The translations under genes and the position numbers were made by a program. DNA of 64,000 nt from Sphingobacterium endophyticum (GTDB lineage Bacteria; Bacteroidota; Bacteroidia; Sphingobacteriales; Sphingobacteriaceae). Below the pieces are notes generated by a model. The model did no database searches. It was not told the DNA's origin and saw only the letters and a program-made list of their open reading frames with translations. Shown here piece by piece: positions 3,529-14,807 of this stretch; the first letter of the stretch is position 1, and every line of letters starts with the position of its first letter. The stretch lies in the NCBI RefSeq assembly GCF_009733535.1, contig NZ_SMMI01000003.1, forward strand, positions 62,001-126,000, read 5' to 3'.

Positions 3529-3560
3529 GTCTAACTACTAAATACTCCCTACTAAATACT
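3529..3560. repeat. TACTAAATACT-type low-complexity spacer repeat
   Basis: A stretch built from ACTACTAAATACTC-like units starting with GTCTAAC. A similar stretch in reverse orientation is at 49151-49184, where it also abuts a terminator hairpin. Related GTCTAAT / AGACA-based spacers occur at 41230-41285 and 52100-52167. Confidence 0.5.
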
Positions 3561-3590
3561 AAAAAAGCTCGACTTTCGTCGAGCTTTTTT
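3561..3590 (-). terminator. ancestral tRNA-Met terminator, now at the island's left end
   Basis: AAAAAAGCTCGAC-TTTC-GTCGAGCTTTTTT is a strong bidirectional intrinsic terminator. It abuts the tRNA 3' fragment just as another hairpin abuts the intact tRNA-Met at 14701-14728. It was probably the terminator of the tRNA gene before the island inserted. Confidence 0.75.
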
Positions 3591-3591
3591 C

Positions 3592-3639
3592 CAGTAGCGG
3601 GGAGCAGGATCGAACTGCCGACCTCAGGGTTATGAATCC
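3592..3639. repeat. left attachment site (48-bp direct repeat, tRNA-Met 3' fragment)
   Basis: Identical over 48 bases to 14731-14778, where the sequence is the 3' part (anticodon loop to discriminator base) of the intact minus-strand tRNA-Met. Here the match stops inside the anticodon stem and the 5' half is missing, so this is not a functional tRNA. It is the expected scar of site-specific integration into a tRNA gene and marks the island's left boundary. Confidence 0.92.
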
Positions 3640-3847: not shown

Positions 3848-4222
3848 ATGATTAGATATACTTGTTTAGCTGTTATAAGCTTTATTTTTCTATTAAATTC
3901 ATGTGCGACTTCCATGTCTCCCTCTCAAGTTAATAGTTTATTACCACGAATGACAAAAGCAAAATTTTACAGCCAAATTCAAGCAGAAGAATCAATTAAA
4001 AGTGGAGGATGTAAATTGTTGGTTTCAGAACGTAAGTATAGAGCGCCTATAGGAATTTCAACATCTTCCGACTTAAAAAATGGCGCACGAGGTATAGATG
4101 AATGGGTGAATATTGATGGTGGAAATGCATATTTTTTAAAAAATTATCAATGGATACCTTTAGATGGTGCAGAGAGTAAAACACAATTAACTATTGAATT
4201 TGGAACTATGCTTTGCAATTGA
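3848..4222 (+). CDS. island hypothetical lipoprotein (124 aa)
   Basis: Signal peptide MIRYTCLAVISFIFLLNSC with lipidation likely at C19. The mature part has about 105 residues, including GGCKLLVSERKYRAPIGI, a DEWVNIDGGNAYFLKNYQWIPLDGA segment and a terminal cysteine pair partner (MLCN). I do not recognise the family. It is the first gene inside the island's left end, preceded by palindrome copy A, which may supply its promoter, and followed five bases after the stop by the structured region at 4227. Confidence 0.65.
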   Translation: MIRYTCLAVISFIFLLNSCATSMSPSQVNSLLPRMTKAKFYSQIQAEESIKSGGCKLLVSERKYRAPIGISTSSDLKNGARGIDEWVNIDGGNAYFLKNYQWIPLDGAESKTQLTIEFGTMLCN

Positions 4223-4226
4223 TACA

Positions 4227-4377
4227 GCTCGCCGTCCTGCGAGTTGAGCGAGGTGTCGTTGAAGAGAAATGCGCAAGCATGATTCAACGATATGTACGAA
4301 GTACACGTAGACTGTTGGCGGTATTTTTGTTTCAAAAATAGTGACAACATCGAAGCCTGAGCGATCAGCAGGCGAGC
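4227..4377. ncRNA. candidate structured RNA with four or five helices
   Basis: A dense set of complementary arms folds this 151-nt intergenic segment. An outer stem joins GCTCG/CCTGC (4227-4231 and 4236-4240, with a CCGT bulge) to GCAGGCGAGC (4368-4377). Inside it, TCGTTGAA (4256-4263) pairs with TTCAACGA (4283-4290) and encloses ATGC-GCAA-GCAT (4269-4280), a stem capped by a GNRA tetraloop. Next come TGTAC-GAA-GTACA (4293-4305) and TATTTTTG-TTT-CAAAAATA (4322-4340). The strand is not determined, although the GNRA loop favours the plus strand. More hairpins follow (4399-4417, 4509-4521) before the DUF262 gene. It could be a non-coding RNA, a cis-regulatory leader or a transfer/replication origin. 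Confidence 0.5.
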
Positions 4378-4398
4378 CAAACTCTAAAAGCAGGAAGA

Positions 4399-4521
4399 TT
4401 TTTAATGAAATTAAAAAGATTTAGGAGCTTTTATGAAGCCGATCCAATGTAAAGAAATTAGCATGACATAATATTTTATTATGGCGTGATAATTTTCTAT
4501 ATTGGCTGAGGCGGAATGCCT
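4399..4521. other. leader region with further small hairpins upstream of the DUF262 gene
   Basis: Two more compact stems lie between the structured RNA candidate and the next gene: TTTTTAAT-GAA-ATTAAAAA (4399-4417) and AGGC-GGAAT-GCCT (4509-4521). No open frame of note is present, so the 327 bases between 4223 and 4549 look structural or regulatory rather than coding. Confidence 0.4.
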
Positions 4522-4549
4522 TATTTCCAATTAATAATGATGTAAAAAT

Positions 4550-6343
4550 ATGACAATTAAAAAGGACTCATCAGATCTTTCAATTAAAGGTGAAAGCATA
4601 CAAACCTTATATGGTTATTATCTAAAGAAACAATTCTTAGTAAACAGAAGGTATCAGAGAAAACTTGTCTGGTCAATTGAAGAGAAGAAGAGCTTTATTA
4701 ACTCAATAATCAACGGTTATCCAGTGCCATTAATTTTACTCGCTGAGGTAACTATTCATGAAGAAAAAACGTTGGAAATTATCGATGGAATGCAACGTAT
4801 GAATGCTATAATGTCCTTTATAAATCAAGAATTTGATATAGAAGGCAAATATTTTGATTTAGATACAATGGCAGATTCCAAACTTCTTAAAGATGATGGT
4901 AAACTTGTTCAGAAGACTGAGATATTAGATAGATTTTTATGCGTGGAAATAGCAAGATATCAGATTCCACTGTCAATTTACCAAGAATCAGAGGAGAAGA
5001 ATGTTGACGAAATTTTCAGAAGATTAAATTCAGGAGGAAAGCATCTATCCAAGCAAGAGCTTCGACAAGCAGGTGTATTAACAGATTTTGCAATATTAGT
5101 TCGACAACTTTCATCAAATATTCGTGGAGATTCTAGTGCAAGCCAGATATTAGATCTAAATTCTATGAAGAATATTAGTATTACTAATAAAAATTTAGAA
5201 TACGGGATTAATATAGAGGATATATTTTGGGTGAGGAATAACATTATTTCTAAAGAAGATCTTAGACAGTCTAAAGATGAAGAAATTATTGCTGATATAC
5301 TGGCTTGGGTAATTTCAGATAAGAGCATTAGGTCAAGTTATGAAATTTTGGATGAACTGTATGGTTATAATTATGACAAAGAAGAGTCGGCTATATACCA
5401 AAATGTTGAGACTAATATTAAGAAAATCAATACGGAGGTTATCTCTAGCAATATCCAGTTTGTATTCGATTCGCTTATAGAATTATTAAAAGTCTCTGGT
5501 AAAAATTTTAATAATTTAATCTTTGAGAGTCAACAACCTAGAATTTCTAGATACTTTCAAATTGTTTTTTATTCTTTATATGAATTACTTATTTCTCAAA
5601 ACAAACAGATATCCGACAAGAAGGCTCTCATAGCCGCACTAGATAAAGCAGGAGATAAAGTAATCAAACTTTCTGCAGGTGGCGGCCGTTGGTCTGCTAA
5701 GGAAAAACAAACTCAAACTGATGCTCTTGTAGGCGTTATATCACGTAATTTTATTGATTCTGACAATAATGATCCGGCTAGAAGTCAATGGATAACAAAA
5801 TTCGAAAATATTCTTATGCAGTCATCAACTGAACAGACCTTGTATGATTTTAAAGTCGGGTTGCATAACTTAGATGAAGCTAGAGAGTTTAATAATGAAT
5901 TATTCAACAAAGTTATATGTACCTTAACCGCAATGGCAAATACTCATAAAAATGCTGTAGGATATTGTTTAATTGGTGTGTCAGATACTCCAGATACAAC
6001 AAGAAGATATAAGGAAATTTATGGTACTGAAGCTATAAGATATTCTAACTTTGATATAACTGGTGCTAATGGCGATGCTAGTAACTATAAAAAGCTAAGC
6101 GATGAATACTTCACTAAATTAGTCAACCTTATAAAAACTCAACCAATTACTGAAAGAGATAAAGATAATCTGCTGAGAAACATATCTCTCATAAAATACT
6201 TTGAAAAGGAAGTTATACTCCTAAAGATAGAATCTGATTCAAAGCCATCAATTTATAATGGAAAATATTTTGTTCGTCATGGAAGTAATTTGAGTGAGGT
6301 TTCGGCCGAAAATTTTGCGGATTTGTTTAAACGATTTCAATAA
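4550..6343 (+). CDS. DUF262 and Schlafen/AlbA_2 fusion protein
   Basis: Protein of 597 residues with two recognisable ends. The N-terminus is a DUF262 (ParB/GmrS-like) domain: YQR at 35-37, the SIINGYPVPLILL segment, the hallmark D79-G-M-Q-R83, and a downstream FRRLNSGGKHLSKQELRQA motif. DUF262 domains occur in GmrSD-type restriction enzymes and act as NTP-dependent nuclease or sensor modules. The last 175 residues or so resemble the Schlafen AlbA_2 fold: YDFKVG in place of the usual EFK, TAMANTHKNAVGYCLIGVSD, and KPSIYNGKYFVRHGSNL. The GmrSD partner domain DUF1524 (HNH) is not seen. A role in defence is inferred from family and island context. Single-gene unit on the plus strand. Confidence 0.75.
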   Translation: MTIKKDSSDLSIKGESIQTLYGYYLKKQFLVNRRYQRKLVWSIEEKKSFINSIINGYPVPLILLAEVTIHEEKTLEIIDGMQRMNAIMSFINQEFDIEGKYFDLDTMADSKLLKDDGKLVQKTEILDRFLCVEIARYQIPLSIYQESEEKNVDEIFRRLNSGGKHLSKQELRQAGVLTDFAILVRQLSSNIRGDSSASQILDLNSMKNISITNKNLEYGINIEDIFWVRNNIISKEDLRQSKDEEIIADILAWVISDKSIRSSYEILDELYGYNYDKEESAIYQNVETNIKKINTEVISSNIQFVFDSLIELLKVSGKNFNNLIFESQQPRISRYFQIVFYSLYELLISQNKQISDKKALIAALDKAGDKVIKLSAGGGRWSAKEKQTQTDALVGVISRNFIDSDNNDPARSQWITKFENILMQSSTEQTLYDFKVGLHNLDEAREFNNELFNKVICTLTAMANTHKNAVGYCLIGVSDTPDTTRRYKEIYGTEAIRYSNFDITGANGDASNYKKLSDEYFTKLVNLIKTQPITERDKDNLLRNISLIKYFEKEVILLKIESDSKPSIYNGKYFVRHGSNLSEVSAENFADLFKRFQ

Positions 6344-9592: not shown

Positions 9593-11422
9593 TTATTTAT
9601 GATCTAATATTTTATAAAACCAAATGTTACGATTTTCCCCTCTTCCTTTGTAGCGATCACTAATTTCTAAGTATCGTTTTGCATTAACAATAGTATGTTT
9701 CATCGGAAGGGAATATTTGTCAATTATATCTCCAAATTGTTGCTTTAGATCATCTCCTTGCCATTCAGAATTGATTGGAAATTCATTTCTCAAATCTTCT
9801 ATAAAGGGGATGCAATCGGCTGAGTCGTTAATCAATTTTGACTTAATTGCTTTTTCAACATCAGTTTTACAATGTGCTTTATATATTTCTTCTAATAGGT
9901 TCAACTTTATAGCCAGGAATATCTCTGGAAAATACATTTGAGTTTCAGCCACTTGCTGTTGTAAATCATTGTATTCATCAGAGGTTGGTTCGAAATGATT
10001 ATACCCATCTAAAAGATCAAAAATTCTTGTTATGTTTTGTTTGTAAGATCTGAATATTCTTCTTGAAATATCTGACTGTGAATCGTAGAAAAAATTTCTG
10101 AAATAAGTTTCAACGTTAAAATAATTAATATCAGTATTAAAAATTGAAGAAGTATTATAAGAGTCTATTAATTCGACTTGGGAGGTATACTGAAATAAAC
10201 ATTTTTGCTTTAAAAAATAATTATCAATAAGGAAATAAGATTTTTTACGAGTGATGGGATCGAGAAATTTATTATAAACATGACCTTCGAATGAAATTTT
10301 AAAAGCTTCTCTTTGAGATGGTTTTGTAGAAGCATCATGAAGTGCTAATAGGTGGCTATAAACACAATCAAGGGTATGGATAAATATCTCTGCGTCTTCA
10401 ATTTTCTTGCAATTTAGTTTATCATCAACGTTCGAAATAGCTATTATTTTCTTCCTAAAACTATCATTTCTAAATCTTCCTATAATTTGTATTGCTTCCG
10501 AATTAGCATCGATTATAGAATGTTCTGCCATATGAGTGTCTGTGATAAGAAATATATTACAATCATAATCTATATCAATATCAACGGCCGAGAAGAATCT
10601 AGATGTGAAAAAATTATACTTCACAAAACATTCTTCTTCAATTGAAGAGGAGGCATATTGCACCTTTCCTTCTATGTCACCTAAACTTTTATCTGATACA
10701 AATACTGCACTTTCATTAGAAATATTAAGTTTTGAAATGATTTTTTCAATTCCTCTTGTTGAATTGAAGAAAATGAAATTTTTACGACCTTCATTTTGCT
10801 TTATAAGTAACTGAAATAATGCATATTGATTATTTGTAATATGCAAATCGATATTCATAGTGATATCATAGTTTGGAATTATTGAAAGATATTCAAAGTT
10901 TTGACTTTTAAATCTCGGATCGGTTGGGACTAGTGCAGTTGCAGAAATGAATGCTTTGTTATCAAACATGAAGAAATGTATTAGTGGATCTGTTATTGAT
11001 TCTCGAAATTCAATATCCTTAGTGATTTTGTCGCACTCATCAAATAAAAGGAAAAAATCTTTATATAGGTTAAAACGACTTTGGTTATCAATACATGCCA
11101 ATACTATCTTTTGAAATGATTCAGGAGTGGTTAGAATTTTCTTCTTTTTAATGTTTTCATTTAGTAAATATTCTAAAACATGTCTCTCGGACACTCCTCT
11201 ATAAACACCTAGGATTTCAGGATGTTTTTTCTCCTTACCTATTATAACTGGAACATTTGGTTCAATAATGATTGAATGCCTTGTTAAATCTAGAATTTCC
11301 ATTGTTGTTGCACCAATACCTGTGATGTTTTTAAAAATAATATGGTTAGATGGAATGTGAGGAAATATTGATTTAGGTAAATCCATTAATTTTTGTCCTT
11401 TATTGATTGTAATAGTTTTCAT
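9593..11422 (-). CDS. SF2 helicase-like protein with lysine-less Walker A
   Basis: Protein of 609 residues. The first half follows superfamily 2 helicase order: G35-I-G-A-T-T40 in the Walker A place (the GKT lysine is replaced by alanine), TTPESF at 98-103 (motif Ib-like), DECD at 128-131 (Walker B/DEAD), SAT at 160-162 (motif III), FFTSRFFSAVDI near 271-282 (motif V-like) and QIIGRFR at 312-318 (motif VI). The C-terminal 290 residues are unassigned and helix-rich. Because the other motifs are intact, the Walker A change may be a family trait. It could serve island replication or be a defence effector. It is preceded by the 159-aa gene and an intergenic terminator. Confidence 0.65.
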   Translation of the reverse strand: MKTITINKGQKLMDLPKSIFPHIPSNHIIFKNITGIGATTMEILDLTRHSIIIEPNVPVIIGKEKKHPEILGVYRGVSERHVLEYLLNENIKKKKILTTPESFQKIVLACIDNQSRFNLYKDFFLLFDECDKITKDIEFRESITDPLIHFFMFDNKAFISATALVPTDPRFKSQNFEYLSIIPNYDITMNIDLHITNNQYALFQLLIKQNEGRKNFIFFNSTRGIEKIISKLNISNESAVFVSDKSLGDIEGKVQYASSSIEEECFVKYNFFTSRFFSAVDIDIDYDCNIFLITDTHMAEHSIIDANSEAIQIIGRFRNDSFRKKIIAISNVDDKLNCKKIEDAEIFIHTLDCVYSHLLALHDASTKPSQREAFKISFEGHVYNKFLDPITRKKSYFLIDNYFLKQKCLFQYTSQVELIDSYNTSSIFNTDINYFNVETYFRNFFYDSQSDISRRIFRSYKQNITRIFDLLDGYNHFEPTSDEYNDLQQQVAETQMYFPEIFLAIKLNLLEEIYKAHCKTDVEKAIKSKLINDSADCIPFIEDLRNEFPINSEWQGDDLKQQFGDIIDKYSLPMKHTIVNAKRYLEISDRYKGRGENRNIWFYKILDHK

Positions 11423-13463: not shown

Positions 13464-14576
13464 TTAAAGTTCAGGCATTACACTTCTAAGCTCTTCTGTA
13501 TTGTGAACACCTAATCCACGAAGGTATTTTAATGTTACTATCATGTCTGAATGACCTAAAAGCTGTTGAAGGATATGGAGGTCTTTAGTTTTCTTGTAAA
13601 CGTTAATAGCTGCTGTATGACGGAAAGAATATATTGTTTGTTCCTTCCTAATAATTCCCTTTTCTAACATAACCTTTTTTGAACGTGTCCATAGTGTTCT
13701 AAAATAATCATCATTAAAAGGCAGATTAGATAATGAGAAAATGTTATCATCACGCTTAATCTGATCAAGAATAGGTTTTAATTCCTTTTGTACAAATAAT
13801 GGAACATTCACAGTTCTGATTACTCGACTTTTGTTCTCAACTCCACTTAATGTAATAATGGAATAATCACCATTAAAATGCTTTTTATTTAACACCCTTA
13901 CTTCATTGTGAGGTCTTAAAAATGTTCCATAAACTAACAAACAACATAAATACAAATATTGATTAGTCTCTTTAAGATAATCTAAAACTGTTTTTAACTC
14001 CTCTTTTGAATAAATTTCATGAAGTTTTGCAATTGATTTTTTGGGTTTTACTTTTCTAACAACATCGATATCCCTATCCAAAATTCGACTGGCTTCTGAA
14101 AAGATTGCCATTAAATTTATTCTTTTATTTGAAAATGTAGTATTAGAAGTTCGATATAAATTCAGAAACTTTTCAATATGAATAACCTTTAATTCTAATA
14201 TTGAAACCGTATGAAAGTGTTTTGGTAATACATTTAAAAAAGCTTTCAAAGTTAATTTTAAATCGCTCTTATAAGATTTGCTAAGATTTTCAGACAATTT
14301 TCTATTTAAAGCTTCGATAAGGATTTCCTTTACTTGGAAGTTTTCAACTTTAGAATTAGGATTTAGAACACCATTTTTTAACGCTGATAAAAATTCAAAC
14401 TGAAGTTGATCTAAAAGCTTTCTTTGCTCTTTTAAGGTCTTTGCTGAATTCGGAAAAATATGCAAGCCTAGTTTTTTTCCTGTGTATTCTTTATAACGTT
14501 TGCCGTTAAAATAATAATAGATATAAGACCTTGTCTTAATATCTTTTCCTTGAACAATGATTGGATCTGTGTACAT
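13464..14576 (-). CDS. tyrosine recombinase (island integrase)
   Basis: Site-specific recombinase of 370 residues. The N-terminal part (about 1-60) looks like an arm-binding domain (RSYIYYYFNGKRYKEYTGKKLG), then a core-binding helical domain to about residue 180. Catalytic residues are visible: arginine in YGTFLRPHNE, lysine in the VENKSRVIRTV hairpin, YSFRH for the H-x-x-R box (tyrosine in the histidine position, common in this phylum), histidine in LLGHSD and the nucleophile in TLKYLRG. It is adjacent to the intact tRNA-Met, reads away from it, and the TGTCTCGC repeats lie 14 bases upstream of its start, suggesting autoregulation. It should catalyse integration at the 48-bp repeat. Confidence 0.92.
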   Translation of the reverse strand: MYTDPIIVQGKDIKTRSYIYYYFNGKRYKEYTGKKLGLHIFPNSAKTLKEQRKLLDQLQFEFLSALKNGVLNPNSKVENFQVKEILIEALNRKLSENLSKSYKSDLKLTLKAFLNVLPKHFHTVSILELKVIHIEKFLNLYRTSNTTFSNKRINLMAIFSEASRILDRDIDVVRKVKPKKSIAKLHEIYSKEELKTVLDYLKETNQYLYLCCLLVYGTFLRPHNEVRVLNKKHFNGDYSIITLSGVENKSRVIRTVNVPLFVQKELKPILDQIKRDDNIFSLSNLPFNDDYFRTLWTRSKKVMLEKGIIRKEQTIYSFRHTAAINVYKKTKDLHILQQLLGHSDMIVTLKYLRGLGVHNTEELRSVMPEL

Positions 14577-14611: not shown

Positions 14612-14698
14612 GAATTTCTGTACAATCTGGAAAAGCAATTGCTAGTTAAAATATTTAGTACCCAAACGTCAAAATATGAGTTTAACGTGGATATATAC

Positions 14699-14728
14699 TA
14701 AAAAAGCTCAGCGAATGCTGAGCTTTTT
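14699..14728 (-). terminator. tRNA-Met terminator (island copy)
   Basis: AAAAAGCTCAGC-GAAT-GCTGAGCTTTTT, a 12-bp stem with a T tract on the minus strand, starts six bases after the tRNA 3' end. It differs in sequence from the ancestral terminator at 3561-3590, so the island supplies a replacement terminator to the tRNA it rebuilds. Confidence 0.85.
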
Positions 14729-14730
14729 TT

Positions 14731-14778
14731 CAGTAGCGGGGAGCAGGATCGAACTGCCGACCTCAGGGTTATGAATCC
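14731..14778. repeat. right attachment site (48-bp direct repeat)
   Basis: Identical to 3592-3639. It covers the 3' 45 bases of the intact tRNA-Met plus three bases beyond. The next base toward the tRNA 5' end differs from the left copy, which sets the limit of the shared core. Confidence 0.92.
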
Positions 14779-14807
14779 TGCGCTCTAACCATCTGAGCTA
14801 CCCCGCC
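14734..14807 (-). tRNA. tRNA-Met (CAT)
   Basis: A 74-nt cloverleaf reads on the minus strand. The acceptor stem is GGCGGGG paired with CCCCGCT (a G-U at the first pair), the D arm GCTC...GAGC, the anticodon arm CAGGA-TTCATAA-CCCTG with anticodon CAT, and the T arm GGCAG-TTCGATC-CTGCT. The discriminator base is A and CCA is not encoded. The elongator form is most likely; an Ile2 tRNA with a modified CAT anticodon cannot be excluded. It is the integration target of the island, and its 3' half is duplicated at 3595-3639. Confidence 0.95.

Follow-up and report, generated by a model that had tools for sequence, protein, structure and literature searches.

Among mobile elements, the P4-like and PICI satellites are small tRNA islands in which single defence genes, variable in kind, occupy the space between an att end and the conserved core genes, and among bacterial RNAs, GOLLD and ROOL likewise reside in mobile or phage-linked DNA. 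The 64,000-nucleotide stretch of Sphingobacterium endophyticum DNA analysed here (the window) contains an 11-kb tRNA-Met island whose layout is like that of the P4-like and PICI defence hot spots, with the difference that a conserved structured RNA element marks the hot spot. This element also recalls the large ornate bacterial RNAs GOLLD, ROOL and OLE (PMC12286853), in that it spans hundreds of nucleotides and many helices and that the function of such RNAs is mostly unknown; unlike them, however, it has no Rfam match, is found in another host group, and sits at a junction with defence cargo. HEARO and the omega RNAs of IscB and TnpB offer a further parallel, being structured RNAs placed tightly 5' of a gene in mobile DNA, but membership in this class was rejected, as there is no Rfam match and a Pfam scan of cargo proteins revealed neither IscB nor TnpB. 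The parts of the island to which we refer are the following:

3553-3639, no strand assigned: left att repeat, a partial tRNA-Met; direct repeat of 87 nt, 89% identical to 14692-14778.
3848-4222, plus strand: upstream lipoprotein-like ORF of 124 aa.
4227-4528, plus strand: whole RNA element; the part common to homologues coincides with this interval and is sharply delimited on its 5' and 3' sides, covariation is seen, and matches to models R1 and R2 lie side by side.
4550-6343, plus strand: window cargo, a DUF262 (GmrSD_N) protein of 597 aa, related to the NsnA and PD-T4-2_A models.
9593-11422, minus strand: 609-aa core island protein, no family match, co-occurring with the RNA.
13464-14576, minus strand: island tyrosine integrase.
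14692-14778, no strand assigned: right att repeat, within an intact tRNA-Met (14733-14807).

The island also encodes RadC, and when its core genes were compared to PHROG, only the integrase and the RadC/DNA-repair family yielded matches. The 609-aa protein, which matched nothing in Pfam, NCBIfam, or PHROG, carries a helicase-like LLFDECDK motif and has relatives of 30-44% identity in 13 further Sphingobacterium genomes, where almost all of them neighbour the RNA. Fifteen copies of this protein are present in the genus, and 14 of them share an island with the RNA. In G199 the island is distributed over two contigs, and the one copy that does not conform (G361) is situated at the edge of its contig. 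When larger neighbourhoods were inspected for 18 copies of the RNA, the same core was found in about two thirds.

An earlier note on this DNA had proposed a compact, multi-helix RNA at 4227-4377. The helices then described (a bulged outer helix, internal helices, and a stem with a GCAA tetraloop) are all present, and this segment is indeed more structured than its surroundings, as its predicted RNA fold of -56.6 kcal/mol has a z of -4.1, with 0 of 200 shuffles as good, while the median z over 115 windows of 150 nt covering 3.5-15 kb is -0.22, and only three of these, including 4201-4350, reach z <= -3.8. As the full element, however, the segment is too short. In the alignment, conservation runs past 4377 through a second helical domain and a terminal GGAAUGCCUUAUUUCC; followed in detail, the alignment holds two further domains and then a terminal GGAATGCC(W)TATT(W)CC. 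Because the conserved element runs on to 4528, the interval 4227-4377 represents an element cut in half. The structured RNA element thus corresponds to 4227-4528, 302 nt on the plus strand, with its 3' end 21 nt upstream of the DUF262 start codon. Two models were used, R1 being a covariance model of the element and R2 a second model built from the 3' domain alone; R2 matches are found beside R1 matches, long forms included, as well as at 4441-4528 of the window. Complete Sphingobacterium copies usually measure 357-389 nt, and distant copies (G004, G046, G225, G256, G295, G265, and others) have recognisable 5' and 3' ends and extend from 360 to about 800 nt or more. The helices and parts of the window copy are these:

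4227-4233 GCUCGCC with 4371-4377 GGCGAGC, plus strand: P1, outer helix; 98.3% of cells paired in the genus.
4238-4240 UGC with 4368-4370 GCA, plus strand: continuation of P1 past the bulge.
4248-4253 GCGAGG with 4357-4362, plus strand: P1c, long-range helix; tandem G-A in most genus copies.
4256-4263 with 4283-4290, plus strand: P2, enclosing P3; compensatory changes in the genus, and 8 of 8 pairs in distant copies.
4269-4272 with 4277-4280, plus strand: P3, GCAA tetraloop at 4273-4276; compensatory changes at 3 of 4 pairs in the genus and 4 of 4 in distant copies.
4293-4297 with 4301-4305, plus strand: P4 hairpin, UGUAC-GAA-GUACA; in the genus CG, AU, GC, or GU at one pair and UA or CG at another.
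4313-4349, plus strand: P5, formed by 4313-4317 with 4345-4349 and 4322-4329 with 4333-4340; UGGCR/UGACA pair present.
4383-4437, plus strand: P7/P8 domain, UCUAAAAGC ... GCUUUUA with an enclosed AT-rich hairpin; both-side changes at 11 of 24 pairs.
4440-4505, plus strand: P9 hairpin, shortened in the window; UGACA/UGGCR pair; z = -4.3; R2 match at 4441-4528.
4513-4528, plus strand: 3' terminal motif GGAATGCCTTATTTCC, conserved; the cargo follows directly, and an inter-island breakpoint falls here.

Covariation among homologues, proposed earlier as a check, proved strong in both genus and distant copies. Across 25 genus copies, pairing holds in 98.4% of the cells of the drawn helices, and compensatory cells number 54, compared with 16.6 upon shuffling, while controls in which the helices were slid gave 34-51%; over the whole element, both-side changes were seen in 50 of 107 pairs (236 compensatory cells against 84 shuffled), and within P9 in particular covariation affects 16 of 30 basal and 9 of 15 apical pairs. 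The 30 distant copies, which were aligned by the covariance model and hence lean towards it, show covariation at 31 of 37 pairs, with 222 compensatory cells against 68 shuffled and a score of 0.468 against 0.142, the slid controls being 35-45% paired. P1c was absent from the model used for aligning, so its complementarity lends independent support to the fold: in distant copies it is fully complementary with differing sequences (GCAACAGGU/GCCUGUUGC, ACGAAAAAGGU/GCCUUUUUCGU, GGUCAACGU/GCGUUGACC, GCCUUGGGU/GCCCAAGGC, and UGCAGUUCAUG/CAUGAACUGCA). P1 hardly varies within the genus, and distant copies begin GCGAGCC; many of these carry a tandem G-A mismatch, and the others are Watson-Crick with compensatory changes, with both strands altered in GCGUACC/GGUACGC (L183) and GCUCACC/GGUGAGC (L165). 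The reality of P1 is thus backed by the distant alignment, through tandem G-A or compensatory pairs. The stretch at 4227-4243 could also form an alternative local hairpin (GCUCGC/GCGAGU) competing with the outer helix, and a switch between the two is conceivable.

The excess of G-U over A-C, 198 to 53 on the plus strand (most of the 3' structure having been predicted with G-U allowed) and 14 to 6 in the hand-set 5' domain, indicates that the plus strand is the one that folds. No coding signal emerged when translation of the segment was considered: gap runs are not multiples of three in 269 of 297 cases (pooled, 27 sequences), and such disregard of frame in the indels argues that the element is non-coding. 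A conserved small ORF was likewise rejected, as the copies do not preserve ORFs of the minus strand, 4147-4380 for example. With regard to the nicking or replication origin that the earlier note also considered, the compensatory upkeep of a multi-helix structure argues for an RNA, and is compatible with folded single-stranded DNA as well.

No known family accommodates the element. At the gathering threshold, Rfam recognised only tRNA in the whole window; at E <= 10, chance-level matches only were obtained for 4100-4600, and one chance match and no family for eight distant loci. A literature search of open-access text retrieved no description of this RNA element. Very probably, then, the element represents a real family of structured RNAs that is located at a cargo junction and has apparently gone undescribed, and the novelty apparently lies in the family together with its genomic setting. 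While the identity of the element is well supported, its mechanism is something that we infer.

By BLASTN with a 186-nt query, matches were found in 55 of 401 genomes of the family Sphingobacteriaceae, where the element occurs in other genera besides Sphingobacterium; R1 matches are present in 44 of 94 Sphingobacterium genomes and in 14 of 395 genomes of the class Bacteroidia, seven of these 14 belonging to five other families. Genomes of the genus mostly harbour one or two copies, four at most, and such patchy presence, usually at one or two copies, suits mobile DNA. A multi-copy repeat or MITE was rejected on the ground that the element is single-copy in the host genome. The phages and plasmids searched contained no real homologue, and no element surrounded the 12 pattern matches on viral contigs. 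In some copies the 5' domain is lost and the 3' domain is kept along with the cargo. The 3' domain stands alone at G160:C45:8728-8860, G160:C12:154394-154494, and G205:C1:360927-361055, the first of which is flanked by a cargo block on each side within a single island, giving the impression of stacked cargo. The 3' motif persists as GAAYRCC-W-rich-CC in many distant genera and some other families.

The apical loop of P5 is hypervariable, ranging from 3 nt in the window to more than 100 nt elsewhere. In P5 and P9 a UGGCR strand faces a UGACA strand, and in the six genus copies printed there are exactly two of each. In long forms (L049, L172, L178) the UGGCR-UAU / AUA-UGACA pairing occurs up to four times, which suggests a repeated RNA building block, and in most of L049-L051, L172, L173, L177, and L178 a further hairpin with GCAATGAGYGHMGCGGRTTGC lies just 5' of the conserved start, so that the long form of the RNA may begin earlier than the Sphingobacterium form. 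Retron ncRNAs (msr-msd) come to mind here, as they too combine an outer inverted repeat, short hairpins, and one long variable hairpin, and the outer helix could be equated with a1/a2, P2-P4 with the msr hairpins, and P5 with the variable msd stem, a reverse transcriptase acting in trans. The order of the helices and the hypervariable long hairpin agree with such an assignment, but the element has no required or linked reverse transcriptase, none is encoded in the window island, and on its 3' side the element possesses a second domain and a conserved tail. Since 26 of the 44 RNA-bearing genomes of the genus lack any reverse transcriptase match at E <= 1e-8, a retron-like RNA is excluded for practical purposes.

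In Sphingobacterium the element usually lies directly upstream of one cargo gene, and this cargo varies between islands. The types encountered in the genus include DUF262, a PDC-S28-like helicase, SIR2-STAND, AAA_15/AAA_21 (AriA-/AbiLi-like), and N6 methyltransferase, and further RelA/SpoT (PDC-S33-like), Schlafen AlbA_2, NACHT, DUF4365, DUF4747, and Panacea, so that, by predicted family, the cargo is mostly defence-like. The window gene, earlier read as a DUF262-AlbA_2 fusion, has the DUF262 part (GmrSD_N, Pfam), whereas AlbA_2 went undetected at E <= 0.01. Placing the RNA directly behind the lipoprotein gene was correct as to adjacency, the spacer being 4 nt (the ORF ends at 4222) rather than five. 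The idea of an RNA partner specific to the DUF262 defence protein draws on their adjacency in the window, in Sphingobacterium sp. CZ-2, and, with another DUF262 gene, in G096. As a general rule it is refuted, as the element does not always neighbour DUF262 genes: most copies precede unrelated genes, and seven loci of DUF262 homologues outside the genus have no copy of the RNA. The two histories differ as well: from 4512 on, the DUF262 block is 93% identical in DNA between the window and CZ-2, their RNAs are 76% identical, and the break falls at the 3' end of the RNA. We therefore regard such a partnership as highly improbable.

Similar breaks are found elsewhere. G325 and G137 have the upstream gene and the RNA in common up to the last RNA base; between G331 and G232 the similarity covers the complete RNA, end to end, but none of the neighbouring sequence; and in G160 and G053 RNA and cargo are common from the first RNA base. 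Along with the window and CZ-2, these pairs identify each end of the RNA as a breakpoint, and they show that the element sits at the boundary where putative defence cargo is exchanged, whatever the process that generates the exchange.

These breakpoints could be taken to mean that the element, as single-stranded DNA or RNA, is itself a site at which new genes are captured at the 3' motif, somewhat as at an integron site. At both ends, in fact, unrelated neighbours meet the element at a sharp breakpoint, no other part is retained next to cargo as widely as the 3' motif, neighbours occur in either orientation within a few nucleotides, and G025 has two copies, each placed between a tyrosine recombinase gene and an RHS-tip gene. 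Integron attC sites are also folded elements at gene boundaries with exchangeable neighbours, and their boxes (GTTRRRY / RYYYAAC) find their nearest counterpart, aligned by eye, in GTTTGGC / GCCAAAC, one position off the consensus. The element, however, measures 300-800 nt with many helices, a fold far larger than that of attC, usually occurs as one copy per island, and was seen in no long arrays. Membership among attC sites was rejected, as the window island integrase scores 43.6 bits against an integron-integrase cut-off of 265 and there are no cassette arrays (four copies at most). The G025 recombinase was rejected as a general partner, not being linked to the RNA elsewhere (only one other of about 30 related loci, L093, has the RNA nearby), and ordinary homologous recombination between islands could also produce breaks near the ends. 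A capture site thus appears doubtful to us. The G025 locus itself (L052, G025:C1) consists of a 7-kb unit, present twice, with a CHC2/Toprim primase-like gene, the tyrosine recombinase, the RNA, an RHS-tip gene, a lipoprotein, an HTH gene, and a SymE-like toxin, and looks like a system for swapping RHS tips.

The arrangement of cargo in Sphingobacterium is what leads us to favour, at a probability of roughly 40%, a role of the RNA mainly as a cis-acting leader of the cargo in the islands of this genus. Of the 37 downstream ORFs here, 32 run in the same direction as the RNA and 25 lie within 150 nt, the ATG of several cargo genes falls 9-37 nt past the 3' end of the element, and upstream ORFs on the same strand end <=60 nt away in 11 copies. 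With the cargo starting so near, there is no room for a separate promoter, which leaves the transcript no place to start except within the RNA or upstream of it. The element would then be a common 5' leader, in cis, for whichever cargo gene follows: transcription would start upstream of it or inside it and continue through the cargo gene, and the fold would control, protect, or time cargo expression regardless of the cargo sequence, so that a newly acquired defence gene would be regulated at once. Since the same RNA is found in all the islands, it would also provide a fixed edge for cargo swapping. Our search for promoters upstream of the element returned no conserved promoter, the 5' flanks being unconserved; a promoter-like TTG-N-TANNTTGG is found in the P9 region in part of the copies, and the cargo promoter may therefore lie inside the 3' domain.

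The suggestion that the RNA is a leader of the downstream gene, then, holds as plausible within Sphingobacterium and does not carry over to distant relatives. Among 30 distant copies, the downstream gene is equally often on the same and on the opposite strand (15/15), and convergent genes can terminate 4-35 nt past the element; with the downstream gene on either strand, cis control cannot be the only role of the family. Copies whose cargo follows a 3' domain without the 5' domain likewise speak against the leader. That the element is an RNA of the island, another proposal of the earlier note, is borne out by covariation, by its constant place in the island family, and by the lack of coding signal. 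It might accordingly be asked whether it is a trans-acting non-coding RNA with its own transcription unit, serving maintenance, transfer, or packaging of the island or the exclusion of rivals, next to which cargo merely gathers. Within the island family the RNA is indeed constant, usually 72-95% identical in DNA, while the core proteins fall to 30-44% identity, and around distant copies the upstream gene is divergent in most cases (21/32) and the downstream orientation random, as expected of an independent RNA gene. The same RNA, however, is also met in islands whose core differs and at loci that are not recognised as islands, no conserved promoter precedes its 5' end, and the tight same-strand spacing to Sphingobacterium cargo would be left unexplained, which makes a trans-acting RNA an unlikely reading, though one that deserves attention. 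Somewhat speculatively, and with low confidence, the RNA could be pictured as a universal docking module for immune genes across Bacteroidia, at whose conserved 3' end mobile islands acquire defence or toxin genes and whose fold gives ready-made control or drives the exchange.

Structured RNAs so large and so conserved are rare in bacteria, and their functions are often unusual. An RNA linked to the site of defence-gene exchange would offer a handle on how islands gain and express immune genes without tuning each of them, and reading the genes that lie behind it could become a systematic search for undiscovered defence genes. Both questions can be put to the test with the covariance model and the sharp 3' motif.
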